64,000 nucleotides of DNA from Prorocentrum cordatum (Eukaryota; Sar; Dinophyceae; Prorocentrales; Prorocentraceae): assembly GCA_963575745.1 (NCBI GenBank), contig CAUYUJ010020524.1, positions 91,206 to 155,205 of the forward strand, read 5' to 3'. Of the stretch, positions 7,540 to 26,619 are shown one piece after another. The position numbers were made by a program, and so were the translations under genes. The notes beneath the pieces are model-generated. The model worked only from the letters and a program-made list of their open reading frames with translations, ran no database searches and was not told the DNA's origin. Within the stretch, counting starts at the first letter, position 1, and each line of letters begins with the position of its first letter.

Positions 7540-7745
7540 TCGGGCCAGGCGACAGGGGGGGATAGCAAAGGGAGGGTCTGAGAATCAGCTCACGCAGCTG
7601 ATTTTCCCGGCGCCTCCCGGCGCCGGAGGCGGCTACGTATCGAGGCGTGGGCCCCTCGGTGGGGCCGAAACCAGCTGCATGCAGCAGATGTCGTGACCCC
7701 CCCTTTCCCAATCCCCCCCTTTCGTCGGGCCCGAGAGAGGCCGCG
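7540..7745. repeat. Dispersed repeat B, copy 1
   Basis: The string GGGGCCGAAACCAGCTGCAT, then GCAGCA, a C-rich run and CGGCCCGAGA-like sequence is shared with 47535-47620. The preceding AGAATCAGCTCAC (about 7580) is shared with about 47303. Copies are in the same orientation. No function is apparent. Confidence 0.55.
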
Positions 7746-7825
7746 GCGACACAGGCAACGAGTCCTTGACAACATGGGGAGGACCTGCTGTCGGTCTTCG
7801 CGGGAGGCAGCGATCGGGGGACCAG

Positions 7826-7925
7826 CTCGGGGGGGGAATCGTCGACCTGGCATCGGCGATCCATCGCCGATGGATCGGCGACGTGCCCCCGATGGCGAAT
7901 CCGCACGTCCTTGGGCGAGGTGGGA
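7826..7925. repeat. Dispersed repeat with ATCGGCGA/TCGCCGAT hairpin, copy 2
   Basis: TCGACCTGGCATCGGCGATC, then CATCGCCGATGGATCGGCGA, forms overlapping inverted repeats and is followed by GAATCCGCACGTCCTTGGGC. It corresponds to the copy at 5418-5500. Confidence 0.5.
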
Positions 7926-7979
7926 GATTGTTGTGGATGCCATGACAGATGTACACTCTAACAATCCGATCTTTGAATT

Positions 7980-8078
7980 GAGCATGTGTTAAAGTTGTGT
8001 AAAACATGTTCTAAACATGTTTCAAACATGCTTTTAACATATTCAGAGCATGTTCGAAACATGTTTCAGACATCTGGA
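7980..8078. repeat. AT-rich minisatellite of AAACATGTTT palindromes
   Basis: About eight tandem, partly degraded units of roughly 11 bp (AACATGTTCT, AAACATGTTTC, AAACATGCTTTT and so on) form an AT-rich island in GC-rich DNA. Each unit is itself palindromic. Confidence 0.6.
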
Positions 8079-9208: not shown

Positions 9209-9308
9209 NNNNNNNNNNNNNNNNNNNNNNNNNNNNNNNNNNNNNNNNNNNNNNNNNNNNNNNNNNNNNNNNNNNNNNNNNNNNNNNNNNNNNNNNNNNN
9301 NNNNNNNN
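9209..9308. other. Assembly gap (100 N)
   Basis: Exactly 100 N bases, the usual convention for a gap of unknown size. It is flanked by complementary CT-rich and GA-rich microsatellite, so the true sequence is probably low-complexity. Confidence 0.99.
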
Positions 9309-9896
9309 GGAGGAGGGGGATGAGGAGGAGGAGGAGGAGGGGGGCCGTGGCACATGACATAGCCGCCGAGAAGACGGGCGGCGGGCATGCGCGATGCTGC
9401 GCGTACGCCCTTGATGAGTTAGCAAAGTCCACGGGGAAACAGACGGGGGGGGGCGCGTGGCCGTCGCCCACCGAGCGCGACGCCACCCGACCCGAAGTCG
9501 TTGCCTTGCGAAGGAAGCGAAAGAGAAGAGGAGGATGAAGAGAGTAGGGGGAGAAGAACAAGGAAGAGGAGAGGGAGGAGGAGGAAAACGACGAGGAGGA
9601 GGAGGAGCTGAGTGGGCGGAGGGAGGAGTGAGGAGAAGGAGGTTGGCGGTGTGAAGCGAGAAAGGCTTAGGGAAAAGAACCAGAGAGGGACCAGAACACC
9701 AGGAGGGAAGCACTATTCGGACACGAGCTTCACTCGTCGACCAGCAGCAGGTGGCTTGGCCCTGGGCAGGGCGGCCGACGCATATAACATGACCATGCGC
9801 CTAGTACGACAGCCACAAATACAAACGCAAAAAAAGGTGAGAGTGGCCCTGTTGCTACTGCTGCCCCTGCTGCTGTTTCTGCTCCTCCTCCTCTCC

Positions 9897-9927
<31 letters not shown>

Positions 9928-11365
9928 TCCTCCTCCCCCCCCCCCCGCCTTCCTTCCTTCGGCCCCCCTCCCCCCCACCCCCCCCCCCCTCCCCCCCCCT
10001 CCCCCTTTTTTTTTCCATCCTCCTCCCCCTTTCCCCTCCCCCCCCTCCTCTTCCAATTCTCCGTTCCTGCCTCGTCTTCGTCCCCCCTCCCCTTCTCTGT
10101 CTTTTCCACCTTCCCTCCTGTTTTCCTTGTCCTCGTCCTCCCTCCCTTTCGCGCCCGCTGCATCTCTATCCCCCCTACCCCCCCTCCTCCTCCCTTCCTC
10201 CTCCTCTCCCCTACCGGATTCTTTGGGCGGTTTGCCTGTTCCTCCTGATTCTTTTTTGTCCTACTCCGCCCCCTCCGCCTTCCTTCCTCCTCCTCTCCGC
10301 CTCCACCCCCCCCCTCCTCTCCTCCCCCTCCTCCTCCTCCTCCTCCTCCTCCTCCACCTCCTCATCGTCATCCTCGCCCTTGTCGGCGCCGGCTCGAACT
10401 AGCGTCATGAGGGTTTGCCCTCGTGGCGCCGCGGCCTTTGGCGGGAAAGCCGCTGGCCGCCCCCGACAAACGGGGGCGTGGGCCCTGAAGAGGAACGGGG
10501 GCGTTGGCCGCTCCCGACAAACGGGGGCATGGCCCCCTCCGCGACATGCTCTTGTCGCGGTGGCCGCGCAGGTTGAAGAATCACGTTTGGAAGCGCCAAA
10601 CACTGACAGTGCGAAACCAAAAACGACGACGTCGACAACGGCAACGAATGAAACGAACGCGACAACCCAAGCGACGACCGAGCCGCGCAAGCTACATGCA
10701 CGACGGTGAAGTCTCGCGCATGCCGCGGCGGCGCCGTGGCTAGCAGCGGCCTCGAAGGAAGTCGCCATGGGATTGTTGAGCGCCCGCGCCCGATGGATCC
10801 TGCCGCCAAGCGCGGGCCACTTGGCAATGCACAGTCGGCGCCGAATGATCGCCTGATCGCTCAGCGGCAAAACCCGAAACGCAAACGTTGGCCGCGGCCA
10901 ACGCAAACGCAAACGCGAATCCGAAACTGATCGCGCGGAAGTGCGCAGCTCATTCGGTTTATCTTCGGTGTCGCTTGCTTCGGGAGTCAATTTCTGGATT
11001 TGTGGCTGGCGATTTTTTAAAGATCGCAAGAAAGTAGTTGTGATGGCATGTCCTACATTTAACATGTTGTCTAAAGAGCCAATTGGGATCGGTTTAGCCT
11101 TGTCTTGGTCATCTTTATCATGCGATCCCAAATCGGGATCGATTGCGCCTCTGGGGACTGCTTAAAACCGTGCGAGCATGTTCGGAGCATCGTCGAGCGA
11201 CGGCTGAAACCGCGCGAGCATTTGTTGGAGCATCGTCAACATTCAACCGAAACCGAAGAGCATGTTTTGGAGCATCGTCAAAAGTTAACCGAAACCGAAG
11301 AGCATGTCTGGAGCACCTGCCTCAAAAAAACCGAAAAGCATTTTGGAGCATAAATACTGTTTCCA
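9309..11365. other. Noncoding stretch with GA/CT tracts and a 42-bp tandem repeat
   Basis: It holds GA-rich tracts (9525-9680), a long C/T tract (about 9850-10380) and a G/C-rich segment with the repeated string CGACAAACGGGGGC (10467 and 10516). At about 11208-11330 there is a degenerate tandem array of roughly 42 bp (GAGCAT..TTGGAGCATCGTCAA, then ACCGAAACCGAA). No ORF here has recognisable motifs. Confidence 0.5.
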
Positions 11366-11966
11366 TCATTTCCCAGAGATGAGCTTAGAGGCGCATCGTA
11401 ACGTTAAGTCACGTTTGAAAGATTGCATGCCTCCCATGCCCTGTAGGAGCATGTCTCTGTCAACGCCCCCCTTGGTGTGACCATCTGCGGTCATGTCACG
11501 AGTGTCACACCACTGACTGCCATGCGCGATTCCTCGCTCCATCATCTGTCGTATCCAACTGATGTGTCCGAAAAGGGCACACCCAGTCGGCTTCTTCAGA
11601 CTTTTGCTTGGCAAGGACTTGCAAAAATATTCCGCATCTATGGTGAAGGTGACCTTGATGCTTAGGCCACCCAACCCAAGTATATCTTTCAACTGACTGG
11701 GGTCAGCGGACCTGTATGGAGTTTGTGCAGAGTCGCGATCGTGGGATAGCAGTCCTCCATGTTGTGAGCTGCTGCGAGTGTCTCTGCTGAATAGATTGAG
11801 CGGCCTGCAAGCGGTGAGACTTGCAGTGCGCATCGATCAAGCGGACGACGGGCTTGCCGAATGGCGTGGTTCCGCGCCGAGGCAGGCTTGCCCCGCGAAT
11901 GCTATAGCCTTTGACTTCATCGTCGGCATCTCCACTCAGGCGTCGATAGCCGTTGGAGTCATCGAT
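11366..11966 (-). pseudogene. Copia-type RNase H (3' end of polyprotein)
   Basis: RNase H removes RNA from the RNA/DNA hybrid during reverse transcription. The final open stretch (11833-11366) has the copia-type C-terminal signature: a helix (ALFGHISWIRQMMERGI), then WCDTRDMTADGHTKGGVDRD, where the family reads DTxDMxADxLTK. Upstream on the same strand (about 11966-11800) another frame reads DDSNGYRRLSGDADDEVKGY and PVVRLIDAHCKSHRL, matching the start of RNase H with its Asp-bearing strand. A frame change near 11830 separates the two. The stop at 11366 is probably the natural polyprotein end. Confidence 0.8.
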
Positions 11967-12283
11967 TGATCGACGATCTTCTTAGGGCAGGCCTGCAACT
12001 TCCTGGTGATCGCGCCCAGTCGTCGCGCTCGTATATTGGTCGGTTCTTGGACACGTTGTAGAGAGACCACATATACCATCAATCACACTTGGGTATTGAA
12101 CGCGTAAGCCAATATGCCTCTGAAGCTGACGAAAATGTCTGCAACCATCCAGGATGCCTTGGCGTCGGCGTCGGCGCCGGTGAATTCAGAATGATGTATC
12201 GGACGGAGCTGCTTGATGTATTCATGTTGGTCCAATGTGACATTGCCGCCCCCGTCCCTTGTGCACCTCGCAGCACAATTGGT

Positions 12284-13301
12284 CTATGTATGTTTGTTGA
12301 GTTTGCACTCACCACAGGTGTCCCCGACGCCCCTGACGCACTGGTCAATGGTGTCCTCAGTGCTGGCCATATTGATATCATCAACATGTCTGGCTGTGAG
12401 CAGGCTGCTGCTTGTCTCGAACTCCTCGTCATAAGGCGTGGGTATGAGACCGAAGCCTCTCGTGGTCCTTCTGAGCTTGGTGCATCCTTGGTGCTGGTGC
12501 CTGGCTTGAGGCACTGCAGGCAGTGCTTCGACTCGTCGCAGTGCTCGAACCCTGGGAGGGATCGAAGCACCGTAGCCGCTGCAGGCGGCAAGGTAAACCA
12601 CGCCACACGTTCCCTCTCACCAGTTGCCTCATCAAGTTCCTGCTGATGTCGAGGGGAGCAATGTTCCATTGCTTCTTGCACGCTGCTGCGCTTGCGAAAA
12701 ATCTCCGGGTAGGCAGCCGCGCTGCCCCTGAGCAGGTTTCCACGTCGAAAGCTTCGCGGCCCATCAAACCCCGAAGCGCCGCGCGCAGTCTGATGGTACG
12801 TTCCATCTCGCCCCTTTCGTTCTTCGCGAACTTCCATGCGTGCACGTACCTCGAAGTCATGATGTTTGACGCTTTAGATATATCTTGCATCTTGAAACAC
12901 ATATTGTCATACCATGTCTTGAGTTCAGTAGATGGGGCCTTTGATACGTCCTCGGGATTCGCCCGGGTGTCGGCCTTCGCGAGGAGGTCGTCTTCCTTGA
13001 CTACCGCGGCTCGTTTTGCGGCGGCTGTGACATATACTCGTATAGTTATTGCACGGCCAGCATCTAATATTCTGCGTTGTCGTTCGGATAGGACTACCTT
13101 TGACATTTCTGCCGCGAAGCAGAGTTCTACATATCGACCATTCTCGTCCGAGTCCAATCCGTAACTGTGGTCTTCGTCCCGAGAGCATAGAGAGCCGTGA
13201 GACGCCTCCTCGATGTCGGAATCGCGTGAGTATCCCCACTTAGGCAGGTGCCCCCGCTGCTCTTCAGCGATTGTGACCAGCGCACTGTTGCCAATAATCA
13301 T
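12284..13301 (-). pseudogene. Copia-type reverse transcriptase
   Basis: From 13301 a 290-codon frame contains NIMTSRYVHAWKFAKNERGE, then RTIRLRAALRGLM and a degraded SGTA-type box (CSGAARLPTRR). It continues into the palm: LDIS carries the first catalytic Asp (12648-12650). The frame then shifts: another reads LRSLPGFEHCDESKHCLQCL followed by KPGTSTKDAP. A third reads ARHVDDINMA with the catalytic HVDD box at 12377-12388, equivalent to the copia YVDD. Order and spacing match copia RTs. Both catalytic Asp positions survive but the frame is broken at least twice. Confidence 0.85.
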
Positions 13302-13807
13302 ATGGGTGGGTACAGTGTAGAGGTCACCTAATAGTGGACTTGCCTCCAGTAGTTCACATTATTCATGTAATTCTGTGTACCACACTTCCATCATATGTGC
13401 CTCGAAGTCCGCTTCTGATTCCTCATATATCGTAGGAAGCCGTCAATCCTCCTGTGGTGGTTCGGCTTCTGGGGCTTCTCTGGCGTCTTCGTCTTGTGTC
13501 GGTATGTCCGCCAGTGCCTCAAACTCTGTGATATCTCGGTCAAAGCACGCTTGCGGTTTCGTGGGCTTTAGGCACTGGATGATTCTTGGACGTGCTGATC
13601 CAGTGCATTATGCTTCATAGTGAAGGAAGCCTGGATTTACATCATTGTCATCATGGAGCAATGTGCAACTGTCAGCGTAAGCCACCGGAGGTAGCCCATG
13701 GATGCTCTGGCCCAACCTAACAGAGACTACATTCTCGATGCGGAAAGAGTTTCGGATGAGGTATTGTATCGCCAGATGTACTTTGGGAGATCATCGGCTA
13801 GCACTGG
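13302..13807 (-). other. Linker between integrase and RT, no recognisable domain
   Basis: In copia elements this position holds the variable region between the integrase C-terminus and the RT. I see only short acidic and Ser-rich open segments and no motif. One sense-strand microhairpin (13244-13257) lies just inside the RT side. Confidence 0.4.
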
Positions 13808-14285
13808 TCATCTGAAGCGCCCCCCTCTTGGTCGGACATAGCCAAATGTCGTAGCAGGTCTCCCCGCAGGTAGACTGGCAACAGATGTCAACACCCTCCG
13901 TAATGCAGTGCTGTCCAAGCCGATGTCTCCGGCTATCAATGCTTCGATGTAAAGTGAATGTCGTGCACCGCCATATTGGACTAGTAAACCGCGGTTTCCC
14001 ATTCGAATGATGCTTTGATCCCATGTCGGGATCATGTCGTACAACTGGGAGCGGGCCATTCCAACCTCCCCAGTCGTCCTTCGTGGTTGCGGGGCGATGG
14101 TAGTCAACCGATTCTCCTTCATCATAAGAAAGCCGACCGGTTATCGTTGTCTTATTACGTGGTGCGCGATTGGTCTTGGCTGCTGCAGTCGCCTGTGCGA
14201 TATCTTCAATGCGTGCCCTGCGAATCTCCTGTTCTCGAGAGTGGTCAGACGTTTCTGTTGGCTGTTCATGGTCCAAAACAGGCAA
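13808..14285 (-). pseudogene. Integrase C-terminal domain
   Basis: Two overlapping frames carry the signal: GESVDYHRPATTKDDWGGWN followed by GPLPVVRHDPD in one, and IIRMGNRGLLVQYGGARHSL in the other. The combination of a VxYxRP..KD..GW.GP stretch and an IRxGNRxLLVQYGxxR stretch matches the small beta-rich DNA-binding C-terminal domain next to the copia integrase core. The frame change lies around 14030. A microhairpin coding AGRPA (13854-13867) interrupts the end of the domain. Confidence 0.65.
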
Positions 14286-14286
14286 G

Positions 14287-14786
14287 TCAGGAGCATTGCC
14301 GGTTGCCGTCCAAACAAAGCATTCTATGGAGACACCTCATTATGGAAGGTGAAGGCATAGGCGGCGAACAGGGCGACACCGCATCATGGAATGTGGACAC
14401 AAGAGGTATGTCTAACCCTTTGTTTTTATTTTCAATAGCGTGGAGTAGATGACGCAATCGGCCACTTCTGGCTTCGATTGTCGCGGCGCGTTGTCCACGC
14501 GCGCGCATCCTCAGCTCAGTGCCCTTTGCCTCAAGGCCTGCCTTTGCAGTGTCGCTATAAGGGCACCCTCCCCATCGGAGTAGAGTACCTTGGCAGGTCC
14601 GAATTGCATCCAGCACTGATGATACACATCTAAGATACTGGCCATTGTCTTATCTGGAATCTCCATTCCTGTAGCATGTCGAATACAACGATGAATGATA
14701 TGAAATATATTGTGTTTCTGTTTGTAGAACATAAGGTCGCATTCAATTTCTTCATTGCACTTGCCAGGTAGTGCAGTGGCTGGCAT
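14287..14786 (-). pseudogene. Copia-type integrase catalytic core (DDE)
   Basis: Integrase inserts the cDNA into the genome. From 14786 the frame reads NEEIECDLMFYKQKHNIFHI with the first catalytic Asp at 14736-14738. It continues through IIHRCIRHATGMEIPDKT to FGPAKVLYSDGEGAL, where the second Asp is at 14574-14576. The frame then shifts, and a second frame supplies GTELRMRARGQRAATIEARS with the catalytic Glu at 14473-14475. Asp-Glu spacing is about 34 residues, close to the DD35E pattern. All three catalytic residues survive although the ORF does not. Confidence 0.8.
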
Positions 14787-15385
14787 AACGGTGTGCCCTG
14801 GCTTGTCCCAAGCCCTGCGCCCCCGACGTGCGTCGCAGACGCCTTTGATCAGGTAGAGCCTGACGCTGTCCAGAACTGATTCGGCGAAGATGAATCTCGT
14901 CTTAGGCTATTTAGCACGGGACCATCGCAACTGTAGCTTCCGCATGTCGGGTGCTACCATTCTTGGATCAAGGCTCCGTAAATTTTGTAGGCTGATTTGT
15001 ACATAGAACCTTGGCCAGTCGGGGGGTCCTGGGTGTGCAGCAGGGTTGCCCGCAGGTGGCGGTGGAGGCGGATCTCCTCCCTGGTGTCGGCCACGTCTGG
15101 CTCTGATGTGGCATTCGGCGGTGGTCGTCCAAGCTACCGGCTCCGCTCGAGGCAGCTTGCCCCGCGGCAGGTTCAACGGCATGTCTGCTTACTGTAATGT
15201 CGTGGCTGCGGGGGCCAGCTGCCAGCTGTGGGGCAGCCCTAGAGCCGGGTCTCGGTGCTCGCAGCCGCACAAGTGGCGGTGCGGCTTGCTTGCGCCTCTG
15301 GCGGTGGCGCTGCCTTTTCGGCAGGAGCTTGCGGTGCATGTCCGTGGTTGTCGGGCGGTTTCCAAGGTTTGGCAAACTTGAATTT

Positions 15386-15445
15386 ACAAAGTGTCCGCGA
15401 GTGACCAGGCTTGTTCTGGCCGTAGTTCTTTCTGCAACTCGGACA
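15386..15445 (-). pseudogene. Second zinc finger (CX2C...HX4C) upstream of the integrase
   Basis: A frame on the minus strand reads WECPSCRKNYGQNKPGHSRT followed by LCKF, giving Cys-X2-Cys-X10-His-X4-Cys. It is followed by a Lys/Pro/Ala-rich tail (FAKPWKPPDNHGHAPQAP). The ligand pattern and basic, Pro-rich neighbourhood fit a nucleic-acid-binding finger. It is not the classical Gag knuckle, because the loop is longer and it lies between the methyltransferase-like and integrase domains. Confidence 0.55.
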
Positions 15446-15523
15446 TTCCCAATGGACATCCTCCTTATCGTACTACTGCAATGTCTAGGGTCTCCGTTAT
15501 GTAAAGGGGAATGCGTAGTCAAA

Positions 15524-16313
15524 TTATATGCACATGCAAGACATCCTAATCCTCCCGATGGTGGCCTCGTTAATGGGCCCGTCGGGCTGTCGAGGGATAG
15601 TTGGGTCGCCCAAATCAAATCCCCGCGTGGTGGTAACAAGGGCGGTGGACGAATATGGGTGAGCATGAAAGGGATCACGGTTTACTTGGAATAGATCGCG
15701 CGCTATCTGAAACTGCATCGGCGAAAGGGGACTACATCTCTGAAACTTAATGTGCACCAATGGACAATTCCTTATTACATCCGAGACATGTTGATGATGG
15801 CCAGTACAACGATTTCGCTCAAAAGGCGTAGGCCGGAAACAATGATTGGCCATGGTCTCGGTCGGTTTCCGTGTCAATGCCCCATGGGAATCACGTGGGC
15901 CAGTAGTGCATTTATCCATGCTTACTGTCCATGTGCCCTTGCATTCGGCCAATGCTGTCCATGGCGGTATTTGCTCAAGGCAAGTACCCACTGGTCGTTC
16001 TCGCAGGTACCCACTGGCGCATGACAACTCCCCACAACACTTGATATGTGGAAGGTCTCATTTATGGTGTTCATGCCACGTGTCGCAATTGACTTGGGAA
16101 AAGAAAGAAGAATATCGTCCAGTCGTTCTGCAGGTAGGTTGTTAGATGACAACGTTGACGAAGCAGGAGTCTAAATAATGCATCGCTGCTTCCTGGACAC
16201 CCTTGTTTTCCAAGGCGAAAGTATGAACGTTTGTCTAAGTTTCCTCCAGAAGACAAACTTCGGCTGACTGCTACCTGCGATATTCCCCCGCTTCCTCCAC
16301 ACAGTTCCAACAT
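15524..16313 (-). pseudogene. Conserved methyltransferase-like domain of the copia element
   Basis: The domain begins MLELCGGSGGISQVAVSRSL then SSGGNLDKRS, a Gly-rich loop like the SAM-binding motif of Rossmann methyltransferases. In another frame it reads VNVVI, a TAA stop (16142-16144), then QPTCRTTG (16118-16141), FFSQVNCDTWHEHHK and CGELSC. A third frame gives YLRERPVGTCLEQIPPW, MDKCTTG, KPTETMANH and RCTGHHQH. The methyltransferase assignment is inference from the Gly-rich loop and the QPxC box. That it is a real conserved domain is supported by the same late motifs in the second copia element (54922-55278). Two stops and two frame changes make it non-functional. Confidence 0.55.
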
Positions 16314-16683
16314 ATCGACCTTATTGTGTCGTCCCCAACATAAGGTCGGGATTATGGAGAACGAATCTGCATGTGCATCCGCAGGTAGCCTCGCAGGTAG
16401 CGTGATGAAGGGCTCTTCTTCGTCATCGCTCTCAGTGTCGGAGTCGAGGAGAAAGTCGGTGTAGTGGGCGCTGCATTCGAGACCCTTTAGGTCGTCACCG
16501 CAGTCGCCGCTGCCTTCTTCGACTACTTTGGGTATCTTGCGTGGCTCGATGCCCGCTTCTTTGTCGGCTTTCTGCGTTTCTGTTTGTTTGATCTGGGCCT
16601 ATGTCGGTAGTTCTGTCGGTTGTTCAGTATCGGATGAATTCAGTGTCGGAAATGCGGGAATAGAGGGGGGCGCGCAGCCACGC

Positions 16684-17795
16684 TCAATCGAAGGGGGGGG
16701 GGAGGCGATCGTCATCGACGAACGCAACTCGCCTTGGGCGCGGTCGCTGGTCCTCGTCTCCGATGAGAACCGGTTCCGGCGGTTCCCAGCACAGTCGAGC
16801 ACGAATATTTGTCGCACCATTCGGTACCAGCGCATTGTAATTGCACCCGGTAGGCTGATCCTGAAACTTGATATCTTGTATAACCGTATGGCCGTCCAGG
16901 TTCCTATTTGCCCGTCTCACGACATGGTCCCATTCAGGGCCATTCTTAGAAAACTGAACGTAAGCTCGAGCTCCTTTATCCACTCCTGTGTGGATGCTAG
17001 GATGCGCAGCGCTCGTGTGGGTTCTCTTTGTTTTATGCAAATCAATTTGGCCGATCAGCCTTGCAGTCATCATAGCCAATGTCTTGTTGCGCCATTATGC
17101 CCTCTGAGCGCCTTGGCCATGCCAGTCCAATTCATGCTTGGCAAATTGTGCAGTTTCCCCTGCAGTTTGGCACGTGCATCTCCACAGGTTAGTTGGGATG
17201 CGCGTGTAGGTAGTTGCCACCTGCAGATACGACCCGCTAGGCAGCTTACTTGAACGGTCATATTTCAAACAGAAGTGGCAGCATCGCACGCGCATGACCT
17301 GCAAGACTAGATCTTCAATAGCATCTGGTAAGGGACCTTGTTTCTAGAAATAACATGGCGGTCCCACATGCACGATAGACATGCGTAGAGCCCGAGCATT
17401 GATCATCAATTCAAGATACGTTGATAATGTGGCCCTGCCCGCTTTACAGGCAATCCAACGTGCCAGTCGGCGGGCGTTGCCACCCATAACATTTGATAAC
17501 CCCCCGAGAGAAAGGCACCCAAATACTGTGTACCTGTAGAGGTCATAACCTCTGTATGTGTGATACGGTCGACCATGTAACCGCGAGCTCGGAGTTCAGC
17601 GCAAGCTGTCCGCATGTCCTCACTGACAAGCGCACGAGAACCATAATAATGCGATAAGCGTTCACTTGCTGCAGCGGCCAAGCAGCCGGGTCCACTGCTG
17701 TCTTTGGCAGCCGCGCAGCCGGGCTTGCCAGTGTCCCCGGCGCGCACGGCCGGCGCCTGGGTACAATTTGCAGGTTCCCCCGCGCCAGACGACAT
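16684..17795 (-). pseudogene. Conserved polyprotein region before the methyltransferase-like domain
   Basis: Two open pieces carry protein-like sequence. The first (17795-17406) has a helix-rich part then ELRARGYMVDRITHTEVMTS, GTQYLGAFLSGGYQMLWVAT and WHVGLPVKRAGPHYQRI. The second (17079-16684) has GPEWDHVVRRANRNLDGHTV then IQDIKFQ and a hydrophobic VPNGATNIRARLCW. They sit between the protease and the methyltransferase-like domain and keep a protein-like residue pattern despite lost frame. I recognise the style from dinoflagellate copia polyproteins but cannot assign a fold. Confidence 0.5.
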
Positions 17796-18287
17796 GTCCT
17801 CGGTGTTCAGCCTGTCGGAGCAAGCGCGAATGGCCGTGGCGCGCGCCTGCCCCCGTCACTCGTTTTCAAGCGATGGGGGCGTCCAAATGCCCGTGCCATG
17901 CTGCGCTGCTGAGCCACTGCTCGAAGCGAAGATATCCAACTTCACAGCGGCATCATCTCCTCCTAGAGGCGTCCCTGCATTCACGTCGGGCGGCGTCCAC
18001 TTGCTTCCCTCCTCGTAGATGGCCTGATGCACCTTCGCCTGAAGTTGCGCAAGGCGAATGCCTGATCGGCCGGCGCGGGGACATTTCCGAAGGACGCGTT
18101 CCTGCGATGCCAGGTCTTCAAGGTGTTATTCACCAAGGACTGGATCGTAAAGCAAGCGTCTCCTCGTTTATGGAGAAGCAGATGCCCTTGGCATCCTGAG
18201 ACATCATATATGCATGGGCGTCGCTAGTAGCGGGTGTCCCCGCGCTGCTCGATGCAAGTTGTCCTGCAGTTGGCTCTGCGTCGCCTC

Positions 18288-18990
18288 TTAGACAAGTAAC
18301 GGGGCATCTTCACCGGGAAGATTTGCAGTGATAGTACATGACATTGAACCTATATCCTCTGTTGGAGCCCCGTACTCGTCGACATGGACCGCCAGCGAAG
18401 GCGTCTTCATTGAATCAAGTACCCTGGCGCCTTTCCCCAGGAGGAGCTCGTGCATCTCAGAGCCGGGGATGGCCATCTTCTCGTGCCCCTGCTCCAGGAC
18501 CAGGACAGTCCTCATGTTGAACATATTCCACAGACCCATGATAGCAGGGAGATTTTCACCTGAGCCCTCAGCCACCCTATCTGAGTATGTGTCCAGTCTT
18601 GACATAGCGGGCTTCCCTGCAGGATCTCCTGTCTCCTTGCGCGCGATTCTGCAATGCAAAAACTTATCGCAGACAGCGGCGCCCTGCCCTACATCCGACG
18701 CGCAAAAATGCTTCGTCAAATTCCGCTTCTTGATGTCGCGCCCGTGGGAGCGGGGGCGCGCGCTCGAATGTCTGTGCCGTTTTCACACCGATGATATTGA
18801 TGTTGCTGCCGATGTCCAACAGGATCGTCAGCATTCCGCCCGCCATGGTCCCGCTGTTCGCAGCCAGGGCCAATCCATGGCGTTTTCCGAATATACATGG
18901 CACTTCGGACAGCGTAGTTGCATACAGGCCCTTACGACGCCTCTGCTCTACCACCCAATCGTTCCTCGTCAGGGACGTCAAAACATTCAT
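18288..18990 (-). pseudogene. Retropepsin-like aspartic protease
   Basis: The protease would cut the polyprotein. The first frame (18990 down to about 18740) carries MLTILLDIGSNINIIGVKTA, a catalytic loop with D at 18814-18816 (D-I-G where the family has D-T/S-G). After a frame change, the 18719-18288 frame carries DTYSDRVAEGSGENLPAIMG, the second hydrophobic-hydrophobic-Gly strand typical of the fold, followed by VLVLEQGHEKMAIPG. The catalytic Asp is present. The Thr/Ser to Ile change in the loop and the frame break argue against activity. Confidence 0.65.
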
Positions 18991-19640
18991 GCACCCGCGG
19001 GCCTCTTCCTCAATGATGTGGTTCTACTCGAAGATCCAGGCCGACGGGTACTCGTCATGCATGTGAGGGTGTTGTGCAGATGCGAGCGGCATATTCATGA
19101 ACGAGTCCTCATCGGCGCGCATGGCTACATGTCCGTCTGTTTTCACCATCGACACAAAAAGTAGCACGTCGCGCTCTGATATGGCACTGTTGCCGCTGCG
19201 TGCGCTCGCCGGGCTTTCCGCCCTACGCTGGCTGCGCGGGGGGATGTCACGCCCGTAGGGCATGCGTGCATGAGAGAGACTTGGAGCCAATGCGCACTTC
19301 TCCCAGTGGCTCTCTCCATGCGCACCAGCCATCCATCATTGGCAGGTAACGCCGCAGGTGCCGTCGCAGCATGTACCCCTGCAGTGTTAGCTGGTTCAGC
19401 TACTAAAGGCATAGCTGGTTCAGCTTGTAAAAGCATAGGCGTATCTGTGACAGGCGCGATGGCTGCTGTCGCCTGCGCCGCACTGGATGATGACGCAAAT
19501 TGCTCCGCAAGTGTCGTTGCGGCAGCTGCCGTGTTGTTCGTCGCCATCGCCGCGATGCGGTTGAGCTCTTCGCGAAGGTCCCTGAGCTCGTGAGCCCCGA
19601 GGGGGATCTCTTCACGACGAGCTGCTGCATCTTATCTCCG
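18991..19640 (-). other. Low-complexity Ala/Thr linker
   Basis: An open minus-strand frame (19547-19143) rich in Ala, Thr and Ser (ATNNTAAAATTLAEQ onward) with degraded microhairpin-like sequences at 19342-19385. It joins the RING and protease blocks. I see no domain. Confidence 0.4.
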
Positions 19641-19641
19641 G

Positions 19642-20037
19642 CTAGGGCGTAATGAACTCAGCTGTGATAGGACCGACCCCCCTGCAACTAACACAGGGGG
19701 CCTCACTCGCAGCACCTTCTAACGTGCCTGTCAGCTGCCGATCCACATGCGCATGGGCCACTCGATTCCAGCATTGCGCATGAAATGTGTGGCCGCACTG
19801 AAGCCTCCAGAACTTGTCGTGATTGACGAAGTTGCCCAGGCATCTGGCACACTTGTTGAAGTCACCGTCACTGATGATCGGTGGTGTTGCCGATGGCCTG
19901 ATGCGCGTCTGGCGTTCCAGCGTGGAATCACCAATCTCGCACTGGATCGGTGGCGCTGGCTGTGGCTGCATGGCTGCAAGCGAAGCCATGTTGAAAGCGT
20001 ATGTCCCCGCAGTTTGGAGTAGCGGGTTGCCCCGCAC
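19642..20037 (-). CDS. RING-H2 zinc finger domain of the copia polyprotein
   Basis: RING-H2 domains bind two zinc ions and usually act as E3 ubiquitin ligases. In an uninterrupted 131-codon frame the ligands fall at 19684-19851: CARC, fourteen residues, CGHTFHAQC, twenty-five residues, CVSC. That is C-X2-C-X14-C-X1-H-X2-H-X2-C-X25-C-X2-C, all eight ligands intact. The usual Trp/hydrophobic residues flank it (FWRLQCGHTFH, CW). Upstream, in another frame, a basic helix (LARQRRNQERQARRL) leads into it. All ligands survive in a heavily decayed element, so loss is either recent or this part is constrained. Ligase activity is inference. Confidence 0.75.
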   Translation of the reverse strand: MRGNPLLQTAGTYAFNMASLAAMQPQPAPPIQCEIGDSTLERQTRIRPSATPPIISDGDFNKCARCLGNFVNHDKFWRLQCGHTFHAQCWNRVAHAHVDRQLTGTLEGAASEAPCVSCRGVGPITAEFITP

Positions 20038-20043
20038 GGCCCA

Positions 20044-21100
20044 TCAGTCGGCGTGCCTGCCTCTCCTGGTTGCGACGCTGGCGGGCCAACTGCATGGCGA
20101 GGTTGGCCTGCTGCGCCTCGTGGATGGCCAGGATCTCTGGGCGCAGCTCTCCCGCGGACGCGATGGCACCTCCAAGCCAGGGGCCTGCTGCGTCGCATCA
20201 AGATCCATGGGGGTGGCCAGACAACCGCAATGAGGTATCTGGCCCAGTACTCCAGACTCATATCCAGAGCCGCGTGTCAGCTGAGACTGGTAGAAGTCTT
20301 CGGCGGTCGCCCGAACATGCGGGTTATCCGGCTGCGATCCCACGCGAAGATTGCCCGTCACCTGAGCATGGTAGTCACTCAGCAGCCGTTGGATCGCATG
20401 TCGGGTGGCTGAAAAACGCTGGAACATACCCGTGCCTATTGGGATTCTCCGGCGACGGATTTGGATCCGGAGTAGACTCCCATGGGGGTGTCCAGCTGGC
20501 GTTCGGGAGGTCGATGCCCCCCCAAAGCATACTCTGCACGGCCTCGCGCATCTGTCTGTGCACCCACTTTTGCTGACCTATCAAGATTCCAATCCTCTGG
20601 GCAGCTTCGCGGTCAGAGAAAGCAGGTTGCCCCGCAAGCGGACGCGGCCATGCGAACGGCGATGTCGCATGTATGGCCTGGCAGAGCTGTGGGTCCATCC
20701 GAATGCTCTGGAGCCTCGACTGCAGGCTATTGGTGCCCCCAGCGCTCTGTGGAGTCCCAAATGAAGCTGCAGCCCTGCTCACGGGCGCGAACGAAGCAAG
20801 TTGCCCTGCAAGCACTGGCAACGGTTGCGTCTGAGCACGCCACGGGTCGTCGGCATGTAACCCGTTGCTGGGTGTGGTCCTATTGGACGTCCTACCAGAC
20901 GCGTCCGCGCTCTGGGCCTGAATGCATGATCCATCTGATCCCTCTGCAGGTGCCCCCGCTTGGTAACCCTCTTGCATCATAGATACCGCAGTGCGCTCGA
21001 CTCCCTGCGTGGGCGTCGGTTTGGGGACCTTCAGGTTGTAGGGAGTCTTAAGTATAAAAAATCTTCGACGACGATGCATCATATGGAATATCTGATACAT
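20044..21100 (-). pseudogene. Polyprotein region upstream of the RING finger
   Basis: From 21100 a 241-codon frame starts with a basic N-terminus and Ser/Thr/Gln-rich low-complexity sequence. It contains FSDREAAQRIGILIGQQKWV followed by HRQMREAVQSMLWGG, which looks helical. A second frame continues with FSATRHAIQRLLSDYHAQVT. Three microhairpins lie in it (20622, 20796, 20946), coding AGQPA, AGQLA and AGAPA in frame. No enzyme motif. Probably a structural or linker region. Confidence 0.45.
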
Positions 21101-21342
21101 CGGCTGGAAGGAAGTTGCCAGCGCGCAGATTTCTCTGCTCGTTGTCCTTTATGTAAAGAGGATTGATCCACGCGAGTCCCGCTCGATCATATACACACTG
21201 AGTCGCTATCGGCAGGATGCCCATGAGCTGGACGATGTGGCGCGGAGGGATTCTGCCTGCCCGACCTGCCGTCGCAATGATATCGCCTGCTGAACGCCAA
21301 ATTGCAGTACTGTCGCGAAGTAGGTTTTCAAACTTACCATAA

Positions 21343-21895
21343 TTAATGCTTCGGAATCAACGCGAAGGCCGGACTAAATCCTGTTATCTCCAGGACAAAC
21401 TGTCTGCCCCTTTCATTGGCAGTGTCATCAGCAAGGCACGAAAGCCCGACATGATGTGCATTCGGGATGTTAACCCATTTGGTATCATGAATAGAATAGC
21501 AATGTCCCCCTGGATATGTCAAATCAGCTACCCTTTTTGATGAGGACTCAGGACACTTTATGCCAGGGCTGCTATGCCCATTGCTTGGGCGCAGAAAATA
21601 CGTCGGATGAGTTTCGCTCGCGAACTTGCACGTCTTCACCTGGGGCCTGTTCTTCTGCGTGCCGGTGCTGTCGACCATGCCAATCAAATCCGGCACCGCC
21701 GATGCCTGATATGCCTGATGGCGGTCACTGAGGCGCCGCTGGACAGTCCTCAGGTGGTGTTTGTGCCAGTGCTCGTGGCCCTTGGGCGGCCAGTTGTCGA
21801 GCAACTCCGAGAGCTCCACCCAGCCGTCGCGATCGTCGAAGGAAAGCACCGCTGAGAAGAACCTAACAGAAATATGGTTGCGATGAAACGGCTTC
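21343..21895 (-). pseudogene. Possible KptA/Tpt1-like (RNA 2'-phosphotransferase) domain
   Basis: KptA/Tpt1 removes an internal 2'-phosphate from RNA using NAD. The 168-codon frame starts near LSFDDRDGWVELSELLDNWP, resembling the N-lobe motif (D.GWV.v.eLL). About 85 residues later it has FLRPSNGHS, like the family's R-x-x-GHS. Further on HCYSIHDTKWVNIPNAHHVG then LSC recalls the C-lobe H.T....W..I...GLS. The key Arg and His of the GHS motif are present. No perfect alignment is possible by eye and the segment could be an unrelated winged-helix-like domain. The assignment is tentative. Confidence 0.35.
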
Positions 21896-22167
21896 TAACG
21901 AGTATCTGTGGTGAGCCATGCTGAAGAGTGGCGCTGCTCCTCGGTGTGTAGTGTTGCTGCAACAACGCTCAACTCCTTGAGGATATTCTTCAGAGAATTC
22001 TTTTTAAGCCGCGTAGCCGAGAGCAGGCAGTTTCCGCAAGATGTTGCGTGCAACCTGACGTGCGTGAGCTGATAAGCAGCAATTGCGGCAATATCCATGA
22101 TGTCGCGCCGCGCCACAATATCGATCATACCCGTCATCGATGAAAGGCTGATTCGTTGGGTTGATCT

Positions 22168-22851
22168 TCATCGATTTGCAGAAGCTGCATCTGGCTCGCC
22201 AGGCCCTCTTGCTGGCTCGACTGCTGCAGGTGCTGCCGACGAGCTGGCGCCTGCAGGTCCCCTAGGAATTCGAGAAGTACGAATGTCGAAGTCCTGGCGC
22301 TCCTTCTCACCAATGTCGTAGCACTCGCATTTACTGATCTTGGGAGCTGCCCCTGATGCCTTTGATATAGTTCCCCATATCTTCTGCTTGGCACCATCCT
22401 TTGATGAAGAAGCACCCCTTGATGATCCCTCCAGTGCTGGCGTCCAGCCTGCCCTGTGCGCCCGGCCAAGTGTAGGGCCACGACGTGCCGCGGGCTCCTT
22501 TGGAGTAGGCGTGCTGGCACCCTGGCATGCAGCTGCGGCGGCCGCTGTTGGTCCTCTGGATCGATGTCGCTCAGCAGGTCGCCCCGCAGATCGCTGATGC
22601 TTGCTGCTACCAGGATTGGGATCACCTGGGCTGTTTCTCTTCTTCTGGTTAGGCGGTGGCGCAAGTTGATCAGGTCCTGGCGACTCCGGGTGGCCTAGAG
22701 AATTCGAAGATGGAGAAAGAACTATAGGCTGACCTGTTCTCGACCCAGGAGGAGATGCCTTTGGCGTTGCCCCTGCAGGTGTGAACGGCTGAACTGCGGG
22801 TGCCCACGGCTGAAAACGCATGGGCCCTCTGCCAAGGTTTAATTCCTCCAA
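22168..22851 (-). CDS. Pro/Ser/Arg-rich disordered region of the polyprotein
   Basis: A 227-codon open frame dominated by Pro, Ser, Ala, Gly and Arg, ending in GAAPKISKCECYDIGEKERQ then DFDIRTSRIPRG. It contains microhairpin 22574-22587 in frame (AGRPA). It lies between the RG-rich Gag part and the KptA-like candidate. It has the look of an intrinsically disordered linker. Confidence 0.4.
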   Translation of the reverse strand: MEELNLGRGPMRFQPWAPAVQPFTPAGATPKASPPGSRTGQPIVLSPSSNSLGHPESPGPDQLAPPPNQKKRNSPGDPNPGSSKHQRSAGRPAERHRSRGPTAAAAAACQGASTPTPKEPAARRGPTLGRAHRAGWTPALEGSSRGASSSKDGAKQKIWGTISKASGAAPKISKCECYDIGEKERQDFDIRTSRIPRGPAGASSSAAPAAVEPARGPGEPDAASANR

Positions 22852-23385
22852 TTCACATTAGAATCAACTGCGACCCTCCTTACATTAAAGGGTTTAATCC
22901 AATCGGTCCTTGGTTCGCGGTGAACGACCATCCTGCCTTTTTCGAGATTCATATTCCGTGTAATCCGGTCAGCGGGCTCTATTTCTGGGTCAACGTCGTG
23001 AGTGTAGTCCGCGTCGTGAGGTCCGTGCCGGAGTAGTCCGAGTCGGACCCCGAAGGGGCCGCGGCTGTGGGGCCCACTGCCAAAGCGAGGACCTGATTGC
23101 CTGCGGCTTCACCTCCTTCTGGCTGGTCGGCATCTTCTTCTTTGGGCGAGGCGGGTCTCCCCGCATGCTACTCACGATTGAATGCCTTCAGGTAATGATT
23201 GGGAATAAGATTCTCCCATCTCTTTGGTGCGAGCTATTTCGTGGTCTTCCACTGGCTGATAGTCGATTCGCGTCAGCTGCTCTGCGCGCGGGACTTTGTT
23301 CGGATCTGCGACGCGACCCCGACCGTCGCCGCGAAACCGGACCCATGGTGTTCATTTCCGAAGTTGGGGCTCCTTGATGGGCGCC

Positions 23386-24339
23386 TCATGGGGCAGCTGG
23401 GTCTGCGGTCGGCATAATCTGAGCACGCGCGCGGAAATCCTCGGTAAGTCTTCCGTTATTCGACGATGGCTCTCTTGAAGACCCGCTCGCGAAGAGACTC
23501 CTGTGATTTGACGCCCCCCCCCCCCCCCCGCGGGGGCGAGCGATCTTGCCTTCGCCATTTCGTTCAACATTGCGAAGATAAGACCAGTGACGAATCTGGT
23601 GCTCGGACCAACCTTGGCCCAGCCAGCGTTGCATTGCATCGGGAAGTATGTGGTGACGAGCTATCCCATGAGAGCCATGGCTGGCAAGTCGCTGCGCCTC
23701 GCCTTCTGGGTGCTCTTCTGGCTGGTCCTCCCTCTGAGGCGGGCCCCCCCGCGCGCGCCCCCTCCTTGGTGGGGCGTCAAGTCTGGCACCCCTCCTTGGC
23801 GGGGTCCTTGGGGCCCTCGCATCAGGAGGGTGAGGGCGCTGATCGCCGCTGGGGCGAGCGCCGCTGGAGCCCGCGCGCGAATGCCCGCGTGAATAACTGC
23901 GGGCGCGACCGCGGCGTAGCACGCGTTGGTCTTCAGCTTCCCACTCGTCGTCGTCATCGTCCGAGCGGTTCGCGCGCCTCCAAACTTGGCGGCTCGTCGA
24001 TCGCCCCTGGCGGCTCGGGGACCGCCTCGCGGCCGCGAAAGTAAACTGATGTCCTTCGTCGCGTCCAAGATCGCGCCGGATGCGGTCTGACAGATCGTCG
24101 ACATCTCGCGGCTTCCCCCGCAAAGGATCATCATCGCATACTTCCATGTTTGTCGGATTGCCAATTGCCTGAGGATGGGGCATCATTTGCATTTCCTCGC
24201 CGGTCGCGCGGAGCGTGGCTTCTGAATCCGCGGGTGCCCCCGCCATATCTTGATCTACTTCGGCGGGCACATGTAAATGCTCGAAAAATTCGGAATGTGC
24301 AGGTTGCCCCGCAATGGGCATGCCTAGCCAGTCTGCCAT
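23386..24339 (-). CDS. Arg/Gly/Ser-rich Gag region (317 aa, open)
   Basis: A long open frame with an acidic N-terminal part (ADWLGMPIAGQPAHSEFFEH onward). A strongly basic, low-complexity centre follows (RSPSRQGRSTSRQVWRRANR, then an Asp run, then repeated RG, PR and DA stretches). The C-terminus includes RHHILPDAMQRWLGQGWSEH and a Gly run coded by a C homopolymer at 23514-23529. RG/SR-rich sequence suggests RNA binding. Two microhairpins lie in frame near its start (24299-24312, 24230-24243). It is downstream of the zinc knuckle in element order. Confidence 0.5.
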   Translation of the reverse strand: MADWLGMPIAGQPAHSEFFEHLHVPAEVDQDMAGAPADSEATLRATGEEMQMMPHPQAIGNPTNMEVCDDDPLRGKPRDVDDLSDRIRRDLGRDEGHQFTFAAARRSPSRQGRSTSRQVWRRANRSDDDDDEWEAEDQRVLRRGRARSYSRGHSRAGSSGARPSGDQRPHPPDARAPRTPPRRGARLDAPPRRGRARGGPPQREDQPEEHPEGEAQRLASHGSHGIARHHILPDAMQRWLGQGWSEHQIRHWSYLRNVERNGEGKIARPRGGGGGASNHRSLFASGSSREPSSNNGRLTEDFRARAQIMPTADPAAP

Positions 24340-24507
24340 ATTGATCTCATTGTGGCCAGTAAATGTATCCTCGATGAGCTCGGCGGCGTAATTCTGAAGG
24401 ATACACTGGCACTCTAATATCCGGCATCCATTAAGTTAACAACTGTAACTGAGCTGTCGGCAGGGTCGGCCACTAGCGTTTCCCAGTCGACATACTGTAT
24501 GTCCGAG

Positions 24508-25300
24508 TCAGTTTGAGCCAAATGTATCGACGGATCTCTGCCTCCCCCATCGCCCCGATGGACACTCGCGGCGAAAATGTTGCGTGCTATGGCAGATGTC
24601 ACATTCCATTGTTGTGCCGTTCGCGTCTTCCGGTTTGCCGCCGCGCCCCTTACCTTTCCCTGAAGTGCGCCTGCGGTTCCTGCCTGCATCCATGAACTGT
24701 TCTTCATATTGCGGTCCAGTCAGGGAATGTTAGGAAAGCTAACATACCTCCGCCATGCAGTCGCCGTCGCATTCCCTTGCCCTTGCCTCGACCCTTGCCC
24801 TGCCCCTTAAGTGCCCGTCGGATAGTACGTCGTACATTGCGACGTGGCGTCTTCATGAATGGTCTCCATCTGCGTTTATGCTTCTGATATCCTAGAAGCA
24901 GCCATTGAGCCTGCTGTTCTTCCGTGAGATACGCGGGCAGGTCGGAAACGTCTAGGGCGTTCGCTTCGTCGCACGATGACGCGTCGGCGTTGGTTCCAGG
25001 GTCGACGTCGGACTCTGCGGGTTGCCACGTTGAGCCTACAAGGGTAGTGGCTAGTGTAGGAGCCGCCGTTGCCGGCGGCCCCTGATACCTGGCCCAAGAG
25101 TCTTGCGGCCCCGCGGTCGAACCGCCACTGTGCGCTAATGGCGTATTGGTTTCCGTTGGTTGTTGATCTCCGTTCCAGACGTTCGTGGCAGCATGCCCCG
25201 CGTTGACTTCAGCATTGCAGGTTTCGGCGCGGTGACCGCGGCTGAAGGTACCACCAATATTGCCAGGAGTTCGTTCAGCGATGCGAGCATATGATCTCAT
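24508..25300 (-). pseudogene. Gag C-terminal region with CCHC zinc knuckle
   Basis: The nucleocapsid part of Gag packages element RNA. From 25300 the frame has DVSDLPAYLTEEQQAQWLLL, then GYQKHKRRWRPFMKTPRRNV and a Gly/Lys/Arg-rich stretch (KGQGKGRGKGKGMRRR). In the next frame (24693-24508) a perfect retroviral-type knuckle follows: CDICHSTQHFRREC at 24562-24603, Cys-X2-Cys-X4-His-X4-Cys with all ligands present. A frameshift near 24700 separates basic region and knuckle. The order (basic region, then knuckle) is normal for Gag. Confidence 0.75.
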
Positions 25301-25460
25301 GCGTTCACGCAGAGAGTCGAATTGCTGCTGGTCCCTCTGCGCGTGGCGGTTAAGTGGATGTAGAAGTTATTGTGCACGCGACGCCCCCGCTCCAAAGGCT
25401 CTGAACAGAATATCCGTTAGAATGTGGAAGTTGGGGACGCTAGAACCTGCCGCTTCAGCT

Positions 25461-25983
25461 TCATAGCGGGCTATCTCGAAGCGTGCCAAATGTCTGGTCG
25501 ATCCGCTCTCCCGCGAGGACTCGGCCATCGATGAGAGCAGTGCCCGAGTTGAGTTGGCGCTCCTGTTCTGAATTCTCAGACTTCGTGCTCAGGAGGGACA
25601 TAATGTAGGTGGCACCAGCAGTGCGGCGGTCACCTATGTTGACGACAAAACCTATGGTCCGTGCGAGGCCTCCCAGACCACGCTGTAATGCTGCGGCTTG
25701 ATGGGGGGGGGGCGTCATAGTGCCTGTGGTCACGTTGATCCAGGCATGTACCTCTCGAGCGAATTCGCGGAAATGGTACTTGACCGGCCGGGTCCCACTG
25801 GGGGCCGGCTGTTCTTGCATCGTCTCCGCCACGCATGCGACCCACAGCGCACCCGATAGCAACCCATATGGGACAAACATAGCAACACCAATCCAGTGGC
25901 CCCGCAGGTCGTGGTCGGATGTGGTTTGCTGAGGTTTGTGGTGTTTGCTGTAAGCCTGCGAAAAGGTAGAAGCGGCGCAACAT
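25461..25983 (-). pseudogene. Gag capsid-like domain of copia element 1
   Basis: The frame from 25880 reads YHFREFAREVHAWINVTTGT, then a helix-rich segment (ALQRGLGGLARTIGFVVNIG), YIMSLLSTKSENSEQERQLN and RVLAGERIDQTFGTLRD. Repeated amphipathic helices and the E.I......R.D ending are typical of copia Gag. The second copia element has a parallel stretch (ASAVSVLMNFNGLPQERIDN then FLTRFDILR, 60592-60780), which supports the assignment. It is the first coding block of the element; a start codon is not certain. Confidence 0.65.
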
Positions 25984-26000
25984 CGTATCGCATGTTTACA

Positions 26001-26619
26001 CGCATGGTATCTTCAAAGAAGTTCTCAATCCGAGTAGGTGGGTGGACTTCAGGATTGTAGTAGCGCAGGGATGTAGGACTCGAGTAAGAGGCCTATGCGA
26101 GAGCAGAGGTAGCGCTGCAAGTGTCCTTTGCGGGTGTGCGTAGTTATGTACATTCCTCTGCGCAGACCCACTGCACCCTGATGTTCCACCATGTCACTAG
26201 CCCACTAGACAGTGCCGTGGATGATGAGGAATAGAGCTAGAGCTGACCACCATAAGCAAGCCCCGCCACCAAGTTTGAAAGAGGGAAACTACGCCTTAGG
26301 CGAAGCAGAGCTCCAGCTCTGCTATATCGTAGTAGCGATAGTCCCAGTCGCGGGGGATCGTCGCGGGAGCGACGGGCCATTTCAAGCGAAGGCTGTTTTC
26401 AGTCTCGATGGCGAAATGTACACTTCGCACTGAAGTGTCGTCAGATATGGGCGGCCGGCCGCTTGAGCACAAACGGCCACGGACAAACGCTCGTTACCTC
26501 TCGCCCCTGTCCCAGCTCATTTTTGAGTCTGCCCACCCTCCCCTGGATTCCCGCAGCGCAGTGCCAAGACACAGGCAAAGACACTGCGAATACCACTGCA
26601 ACCAAAAAACCGACATCAC
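26001..26619. other. Stretch upstream of copia element 1, no gene
   Basis: This should hold the 5' LTR if one exists. I found no direct repeat of it near 10.9-11.4 kb. It has a small inverted run (GCAGAGCTCCAGCTCTGC at 26305-26322) and no credible ORF. Confidence 0.4.

Follow-up and report, generated by a model that had tools for sequence, protein, structure and literature searches.

A sense-strand GNNA hairpin repeated along copia-type retrotransposons of Prorocentrum cordatum

The window analyzed here, a 64,000-nt stretch of DNA from the marine dinoflagellate Prorocentrum cordatum, carries a copia-type long terminal repeat (LTR) retrotransposon, W, along which a 14-nt stem-loop recurs. The original prediction had listed 14 such hairpins reading GCRGG-N4-CYYGC, and all of them were recovered at the listed starts on the minus strand. 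We compared W with eight related elements from the P. cordatum genome (E1 to E8) and with relatives of its encoded protein (P numbers). The features of the window element, from its 5' end, are as follows.

11523 to 26528, minus strand: decayed copia-type LTR retrotransposon with a hairpin array, about 15 kb (3' limit about 11523); E3 matches in blastn pieces at 72-79% identity
26268 to 26528, minus strand: 5' LTR of W, limits approximate; aligns to the E3 5' LTR at 73% over 240 columns, with a further piece of 18 bases
25188 to 25201, minus strand: altered counterpart GCGGGGCATGCTGC of the hairpin at E1 3263
24299 to 24312, minus strand: hairpin GCGGG-GCAA-CCTGC, frame AGQPA; AGQ[PR]A in relatives P0009 and P0010
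24230 to 24243, minus strand: hairpin GCGGG-GGCA-CCCGC, frame AGAPA; AG[TA]PA in relatives P0009 and P0010
23151 to 23164, minus strand: hairpin GCGGG-GAGA-CCCGC; hairpin at the same place in E3
22574 to 22587, minus strand: hairpin GCGGG-GCGA-CCTGC; hairpin at the same place in E3 and E6
20946 to 20959, minus strand: hairpin GCGGG-GGCA-CCTGC, frame AGAPA
20796 to 20809, minus strand: hairpin GCAGG-GCAA-CTTGC; the commonest form here is GCAGG-GCAA-CCTGC (15 of 30 aligned sequences)
20622 to 20635, minus strand: hairpin GCGGG-GCAA-CCTGC, frame AGQPA
20022 to 20035, minus strand: hairpin GCGGG-GCAA-CCCGC; hairpin at the same place in E3, E5, and E6
18607 to 18620, minus strand: altered counterpart GCAGGGAAGCCCGC, with A.C at pair 3, of the hairpin at E3 8323 and E5 17029
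18254 to 18267, minus strand: altered hairpin GCAGG-ACAA-CTTGC; counterparts GCAGG-GCAA-CCTGC in E5 and GCGGG-GCAA-CCTGC in E6
18230 to 18243, minus strand: hairpin GCGGG-GACA-CCCGC; counterparts altered in E3, E5, and E6
17770 to 17783, minus strand: hairpin GCGGG-GGAA-CCTGC; counterparts altered in E3, E5, and E6
16381 to 16394, minus strand: altered counterpart of the hairpin at E1 12694 and E6 10663
15040 to 15053, minus strand: site of the original list with loop CAAC, outside the GNNA class
13854 to 13867, minus strand: hairpin GCGGG-GAGA-CCTGC; also a hairpin in E1, E3, E4 (with an A-U pair), E5, and E6
13244 to 13257, minus strand: hairpin GCGGG-GGCA-CCTGC, in another frame (RGHLP); stems at this place are AA/TT in E1, TC/GA in E4, and GG/CC in E3

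The expectation that the loops are mainly GNNA held for 12 of the 14 sites and failed at 15040 (CAAC) and 18254 (ACAA). At 18254 and 20796, the stem A is partnered by T and pairing is retained, as had been noticed. At window positions 13000 to 24999, all 13 matches to the relaxed pattern GC[AG]GG-NNNA-C[CT][CT]GC are on the minus strand, confirming the single orientation; dinucleotide shuffles gave 0.05 expected matches per strand, with a maximum of 2 in 2,000. Across the remaining window, the pattern was absent from both strands, and the only paired match to the more general motif described below that lies outside W is at 5455 (plus strand), in agreement with the earlier impression that the other retroelements of the window lack the hairpins.

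The scan of the P. cordatum genome (4.13 Gb in 21,875 contigs) returned 45,218 matches to GCGGGGNNACCYGC compared to 4,899 for the reversed-pattern control, so that the genome-wide enrichment proposed as a check was found. Among the matches listed (contigs C1 to C3), most lie in dense clusters of the same orientation. E1 to E6 are six of these clusters, E7 and E8 were also included, and all eight are related to one another and to W. E1 and E2 are 94.3% alike, and the longest aligned pieces of E3, E5, E6, and W show about 70-82% identity. E4 is a separate lineage with E8 as its sister at 80.5%, and E7 represents a fourth lineage with 34-38% amino acid identity to E1 and E2 in the longest matches. 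Paired LTRs were found in E1 (289 bp, 98.96%), E2 (287 bp, 98.96%), E4 (253 bp, 97.2%), E8 (235 bp, 95.7%), and E3 (254 columns, 86.6%); only the 5' LTR of W was detected, and no 3' LTR was found in the window.

The carrier is a Ty1/copia LTR retrotransposon. The pol region of E2 matches PF07727 (copia-type reverse transcriptase, RVT_2) at 2.4e-10, and it gave no match to any integrase family at E<=0.001, an integrase upstream of the reverse transcriptase being read by eye only. The reverse transcriptase reading frame of W itself gave no RVT_2 match at E<=0.01, and 3 of 13 of its protein relatives bear PF07727. E2 has an open frame of 3,131 codons (1853 to 11245, measured without assigning a start codon), one UGA, and then 2,199 codons in the same phase. 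The element families have hundreds of candidate copies. Three isolated genome matches were inspected; L001 and L002, which have no surrounding element protein, look like background, and L003 belongs to the distant fourth lineage. No relatives on viral contigs were found for the two queries used, nor any match in phage records for one 901-base piece. The family of one E2 piece (L011:7800-8900) seems to have been recently amplified, because all 40 scored copies, of 744 candidates, are 99-100% identical.

Across the relatives, the general motif is GC-NN-G-[GNNA]-C-N'N'-GC. Its fixed positions are the two outer GC pairs, the G-C that closes the loop, and the first and last loop bases (G and A), and the middle pairs need only be complementary; with these pairs left free, the motif is GCNNGGNNACNNGC, with 256 middle-pair combinations possible. 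Near-complete elements of about 16 kb (E1, E2, E4, and E8) each carry 32 to 37 paired copies, essentially on the sense strand only, which bears out the strand bias. E7 has eight sense matches, four of them paired, and no antisense match. When every 5-bp stem of Watson-Crick pairs that encloses a GNNA loop is counted, the sense and antisense numbers are 42 and 7 in E1, 49 and 8 in E2, 39 and 1 in E4, 10 and 0 in E3, 14 and 2 in E6, and 7 and 1 in W, where a Markov model gives about 1; the antisense counts of E1 and E2 are thus also above chance. The antisense strands of E1 and E2 hold no paired match to the GC..G architecture. Antisense matches to GCNNG-GNNA-CNNGC number one each in E1 and E2, both unpaired, and zero in E4 and E8. 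E1 and E2 also contain a small number of GCGGA/TCCGC stems capped by GNNA loops. The loop dinucleotide differs by lineage, the loops being mostly GCCA or GTCA in E1 and E2, GCAA in the window family, and GAAA in E4.

The middle pairs of E4 are highly varied (GG/CC, GA/TC, TC/GA, AG/CT, TG/CA, CT/AG, CG/CG, CA/TG, AC/GT, GC/GC, and others), and they covary. For this test, all sense GCNNG-GNNA-CNNGC matches were taken irrespective of pairing, and the 3' halves were permuted 20,000 times. In E4, 35 of 39 matches were Watson-Crick paired compared to 5.3 after permutation, with no permutation as high, and 37 of 39 compared to 8.8 when G.U was included. Watson-Crick pairing was also in excess in E1 (30 of 32, 21.4 permuted) and E2 (34 of 36, 25.2 permuted). 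With G.U included, the values were 15 of 17 compared to 12.1 in E3 (141 of the 20,000 permutations as high), 15 of 17 compared to 11.6 in E6 (13 as high), and 12 of 14 compared to 8.9 in E5 (109 as high; counts for positions 13700 to 24750 of the joined stretch). E8 has 33 Watson-Crick and 4 G.U stems among 39 matches, given as counts without permutation. Among 25 distinct E4 hairpins, 97.6% of cells were paired compared to 77.2% in shuffled sets, and the covariation score was 0.513 compared to 0.098, with 0 of 500 shuffles as high. The compensatory changes that the original prediction had proposed to look for are therefore present.

Within the window family, pair 3-12 was examined in a 3.5-kb piece of 30 loci, the window's own included. 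The stems GG/CT, AG/CT, GG/CC, and AG/CC correspond to 68 G.U, 53 A-U, 27 G-C, and 2 A.C combinations (Fisher p = 9e-5, the related copies being nonindependent), in line with the earlier claim that G.U is tolerated on the sense strand. The A-T form is GCAGGGNNACCTGC and the A.C form is GCAGGGNNACCCGC. The strand split over these loci was 175 to 1, where the sense strand of each locus was defined as the strand with more matches, a choice that favors one-sidedness. Genome-wide, the paired stem GCTCG/CGAGC occurs 6,752 times compared to 1,552 for its control. Rfam gave no match at gathering score in 73,004 bases from eight element loci, a 14-nt hairpin being hard to detect by this route.

Orthologous sites show the same matched changes directly. 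At 13244, the counterparts are GCAAG-GCCA-CTTGC in E1, GCTCG-GAGA-CGAGC in E4, GCGGG-GAGA-CCCGC in E3, GCGGG-GGCA-CTTGC in E5, and GCGGG-GACA-CCTGC in E6, and the peptide shifts with the stem (QGHLP in E1, LGDEP in E4, and RGHLP in W). This alignment has nearby gaps and is less firm than that at 13854, where a gap-free alignment shows an A-U pair in E4, G-C in E1, and G.U in W. At E1 17339, the pairs are GT/AC, as in E5, and GA/TC in E4, and the counterparts in W and E3 are altered. In the comparison of E4 with E8, three sites (E4 4446, 6107, and 9481) show a change in both partners of a pair with no indel, and 32 of 37 paired E4 hairpins remain paired members in E8.

Conservation extends over the stems and the loop anchors, and the flanks drift. 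Hairpin sites containing gaps were left out of the counts (1 of 27 from E1, 3 of 31 from E2, and 1 of 37 for E4-E8). All 26 remaining hairpins of E1 retained the 12 core bases in E2, with core differences of 0/312 compared to 105/1,372 in the flanks (p = 3e-10). Starting from E2, 26 of 28 hairpins were intact in E1 (core 2/336, flanks 115/1,439). From E4 to E8, the differences were 5/288 at the eight fixed positions, 8/144 in the middle pairs, 8/72 at the free loop bases, and 489/2,116 in the flanks. In 30 aligned window-family sequences (29 of 40 scored copies and the window's own), core variability was 0.046 compared to 0.082 in the surroundings, a difference that is not strong.

The hairpins span the element from 144 bases past the 5' LTR (E1) on through pol and are present in all three reading frames. 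A peptide linker under codon bias was one explanation offered by the original prediction, which placed at least nine sites in an Ala-Gly-X-Pro/Leu-Ala frame; a variant of it would make AGxPA a protease site. Protein relatives back AGxPA or AGxLA as the coding frame at 20622, 20796, 20946, 24230, and 24299, with AGQPD, AGQAA, ARQPA, SGQPA, and AGQRA as exceptions among them. The motif is not bound to AGxPA, since the peptide encoded at 13244 is RGHLP; [RQ]GHL stands there in 4 of 13 relatives (P0011, P0012, P0013, and P0017), P0018 has GGRLP, and the remaining ones differ or do not show the place. The peptide explanation gains from E2, where 26 of 31 exact hairpins lie in the AGxPA phase and 5 outside it, and from relatives that largely retain the peptide. 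However, 24 of 34 framed hairpins of E4 use a different phase (xGNxP-like), and hairpins occur past the last long frame (E2 17848; E4 17605 and 17783). Silent positions are also near-fixed: the E2 frames contain 28 AGx[P/L]A peptides, of which 26 are encoded GCG GGG NNA CCY and two (AGAPA and AGLPA) by different codons. Outside the hairpins, GCG makes up 24% of the Ala codons, GGG 15% of the Gly codons, and CCY 40% of the Pro codons, and 21% of all codons are NNA. Because the dominant frame varies by lineage, hairpins occur in other frames and beyond the frames, and the stems covary, a linker is rejected as the main cause, and we consider it very improbable. One phase does dominate within each lineage (p = 1e-5 and 2e-6), for which linker constraint and in-frame duplication are no more than guesses.

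The origin of individual hairpins bears on another proposal of the original prediction, a mobile unit of 15 nt inserting in frame, weighed here as an insert of 14 to 15 nt. Gaps speak in its favor: tandem repetition has given E2 additional copies where E1 shows gaps (30 and 48 bases), one 21-base in-frame gap between the two covers a hairpin, and a longer gap in E6 spans the hairpin at E5 16165. Clean presence or absence of a mobile insertion was not seen at the sites examined, where gains were gap-free and by substitution; the other differences were these tandem copies, the 21-base gap, and the longer one. Insertion is contradicted for the sites aligned, which comprised ten chosen by hand and those of the E4-E8 comparison. 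The hairpin at E4 3064 aligns without an internal gap to plain E1 sequence in a conserved protein (LARTLAM and LARRIAM), and so does one that falls in the region of the reverse transcriptase, at E4 16211 (ATGEETRMVCF and ATGEKERVVCF). Alignment to nonhairpin sequence with no gap inside the hairpin was likewise found for E4 11990 against E1, E1 8800 against E5 and W, E1 13160 against W and E4, and E8 596 and 2915 against E4. New hairpins, where traced, arose by substitution in conserved frames or by tandem duplication, and few gaps coincide with them. Together with the differing stems at orthologous sites, these gains reject a mobile insert as the main cause, and it is highly unlikely. Since the frame differs by lineage, gains are by substitution or duplication, and the stems are conserved and covary, the repeats are neither a linker nor mainly a mobile insert. 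Rickettsia palindromic elements, which are mobile inserts, also place hairpin sequence inside reading frames; the gains traced here are, in contrast, mostly substitution or tandem duplication. The parallel drawn with them was misleading, because neither the 15-nt mobile unit nor the peptide reading is supported.

We are almost certain that the repeats are one selected sense-strand structure, held at its base pairing and loop anchors. As RNA, the hairpins would be dispersed recognition sites for an element-encoded protein, for which Gag is the likeliest candidate because the E2 Gag bears a CCHC-like knuckle, recognized by eye. Binding by Gag would serve to select full-length RNA of the same element, to condense it, or to package it, and the loop dinucleotide would track the binding protein of each lineage. 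Fixed GC pairs, a closing G-C, and a fixed loop G and A with free middle pairs are the expected trace of a partner that reads a GNNA hairpin. Of the earlier proposals, the packaging signal is the one that stands as a candidate. For the reading as a whole, a selected structure serving as multicopy recognition sites for an element-encoded protein, most likely Gag, we find the balance tipping slightly in favor; for Gag binding or RNA packaging as the particular use, we regard the case as evenly poised.

Another role of the sense RNA, such as binding a host factor or tuning the stability, silencing, export, or translation of a long transcript, is possible, if somewhat short of probable. It would account for the same structural data and for hairpins in the body, near the 5' end, and past the last long frame. 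However, the loop bases vary by element lineage inside one host, a pattern more in keeping with a lineage-specific partner than with a single host factor. A more far-reaching scheme is conceivable, although it is doubtful: each lineage may tag its RNA along the full length with dozens of copies of a private GNNA hairpin variant. If the Gag of each lineage recognized only that variant, elements in one nucleus would avoid packaging each other's RNA, and the code would be dense enough to determine amino acids of the encoded proteins.

Several observations weigh against recognition sites of this kind. Pairing on single-stranded plus-strand complementary DNA (cDNA) predicts the identical pattern, as sense-strand pairing with G.T tolerance works equally in DNA. 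Hairpins on such cDNA, serving integration, recombination, or strand transfer, could also suit the tandem copy number differences and the 21-base indel between E1 and E2; the dozens of sites lie across the element body and not at its ends, and we consider this role very unlikely. The attC sites and REP/IS200-type hairpins are palindromes that act as a folded strand. The present hairpins are likewise folded-strand palindromes, and no link to a cassette or transposase was seen, junctions not having been searched for.

Further points on the same side concern the structure itself. In 100-base folds the hairpin forms only part of the time, the mean pairing probabilities for sense and antisense being 0.47 and 0.32 in E1, 0.57 and 0.32 in E2, 0.45 and 0.34 in W, and 0.79 and 0.59 in E4. 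Hairpin spacing in E1 and E2 is no more regular than random; it is slightly more even in E4 (coefficient of variation of 0.721, random 95% range of 0.725-1.28), and W falls inside the random range. The unpaired A.C form GCAGGGNNACCCGC occurs genome-wide about three times as often as its control (2,951 compared to 938), an excess that decay of old copies might explain. Five of the 37 paired E4 hairpins are lost to the motif in E8: those at 7900 and 15312 are unpaired, and those at 3064 (one-base insertion), 4119 (loop), and 17783 are off motif. W alone has no covariation signal (12 of 15 paired including G.U, 11.6 expected) because its stems hardly vary, and therefore the window copy by itself could not show covariation.

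The known packaging hairpins of retroviruses and Ty1 are small in number and tend to be located toward the 5' end. Like these packaging or dimerization hairpins (compare PMC8396678), the present ones belong to the sense RNA of a retroelement with Gag as the expected partner; unlike them, the array covers the whole element. The dispersed packaging signals of viruses are short hairpins that have loop motifs in common. The array resembles those of single-stranded RNA viruses in having many hairpins with a shared loop across the element, here seen in DNA, and differs from them in being in an LTR retrotransposon, with a near-invariant architecture, more than 30 copies, explicit matched changes, and putative binding. 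Multiple dispersed packaging signals promote single-stranded RNA virus assembly (PMC6281560), and this is the closest idea. In the literature searched, within the portions of the texts available, no description of such a hairpin array was found, and a word search of the main text of the P. cordatum paper (PMC10666404) for "hairpin," "palindrom," and "LTR" gave nothing.

Few natural examples of selection on a recurring RNA structure within coding regions are as clean as this array with its lineage-specific loops. Two questions become accessible to experiment through it: the means by which a retroelement distinguishes its RNA from that of others, and the way in which RNA structure can impose a protein sequence. 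AGxPA-type repeats in such proteins can be by-products of RNA folding.

Other features of the elements were also recorded. The stop between gag and pol is a UGA followed by CGGGGGCAGG in E1 (11314), E2 (11246), E3 (9062), E5 (17802), and the window (17856-17858, minus strand), and pol continues in the same frame past it in E1 and E2. A UGA-CGG with a downstream stem is a stop-codon readthrough signal, which the gag/pol context resembles. A UGA likewise stands between gag and pol in Candida Tca2 (PMC2194720).

The Gag frame of E2 (L011:1853-9499) includes an RNA 2'-phosphotransferase (Tpt1/KptA) domain (PF01885, 1.5e-15) and a RING finger, an unusual cargo for a retrotransposon. A RING remnant is present in the window at 19645-20043 (minus strand), and window positions 21346-21894, Tpt1-like by eye, gave no Pfam match. 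Many protein relatives of W, among P0001-P0010, P0013, P0015, P0017, P0018, P0021, and P0023, are labeled Pyramimonas sp. in EukProt, which suggests dinoflagellate material in that EukProt set, or transfer. A second short tandem repeat, CCGCAGCGGATC..., lies at about E1 12420. Adjoining W, at about 26500-27400 of the window, the open reading frame listing contains minus-strand frames rich in repeated Gly-Leu-Trp-Ser peptides.

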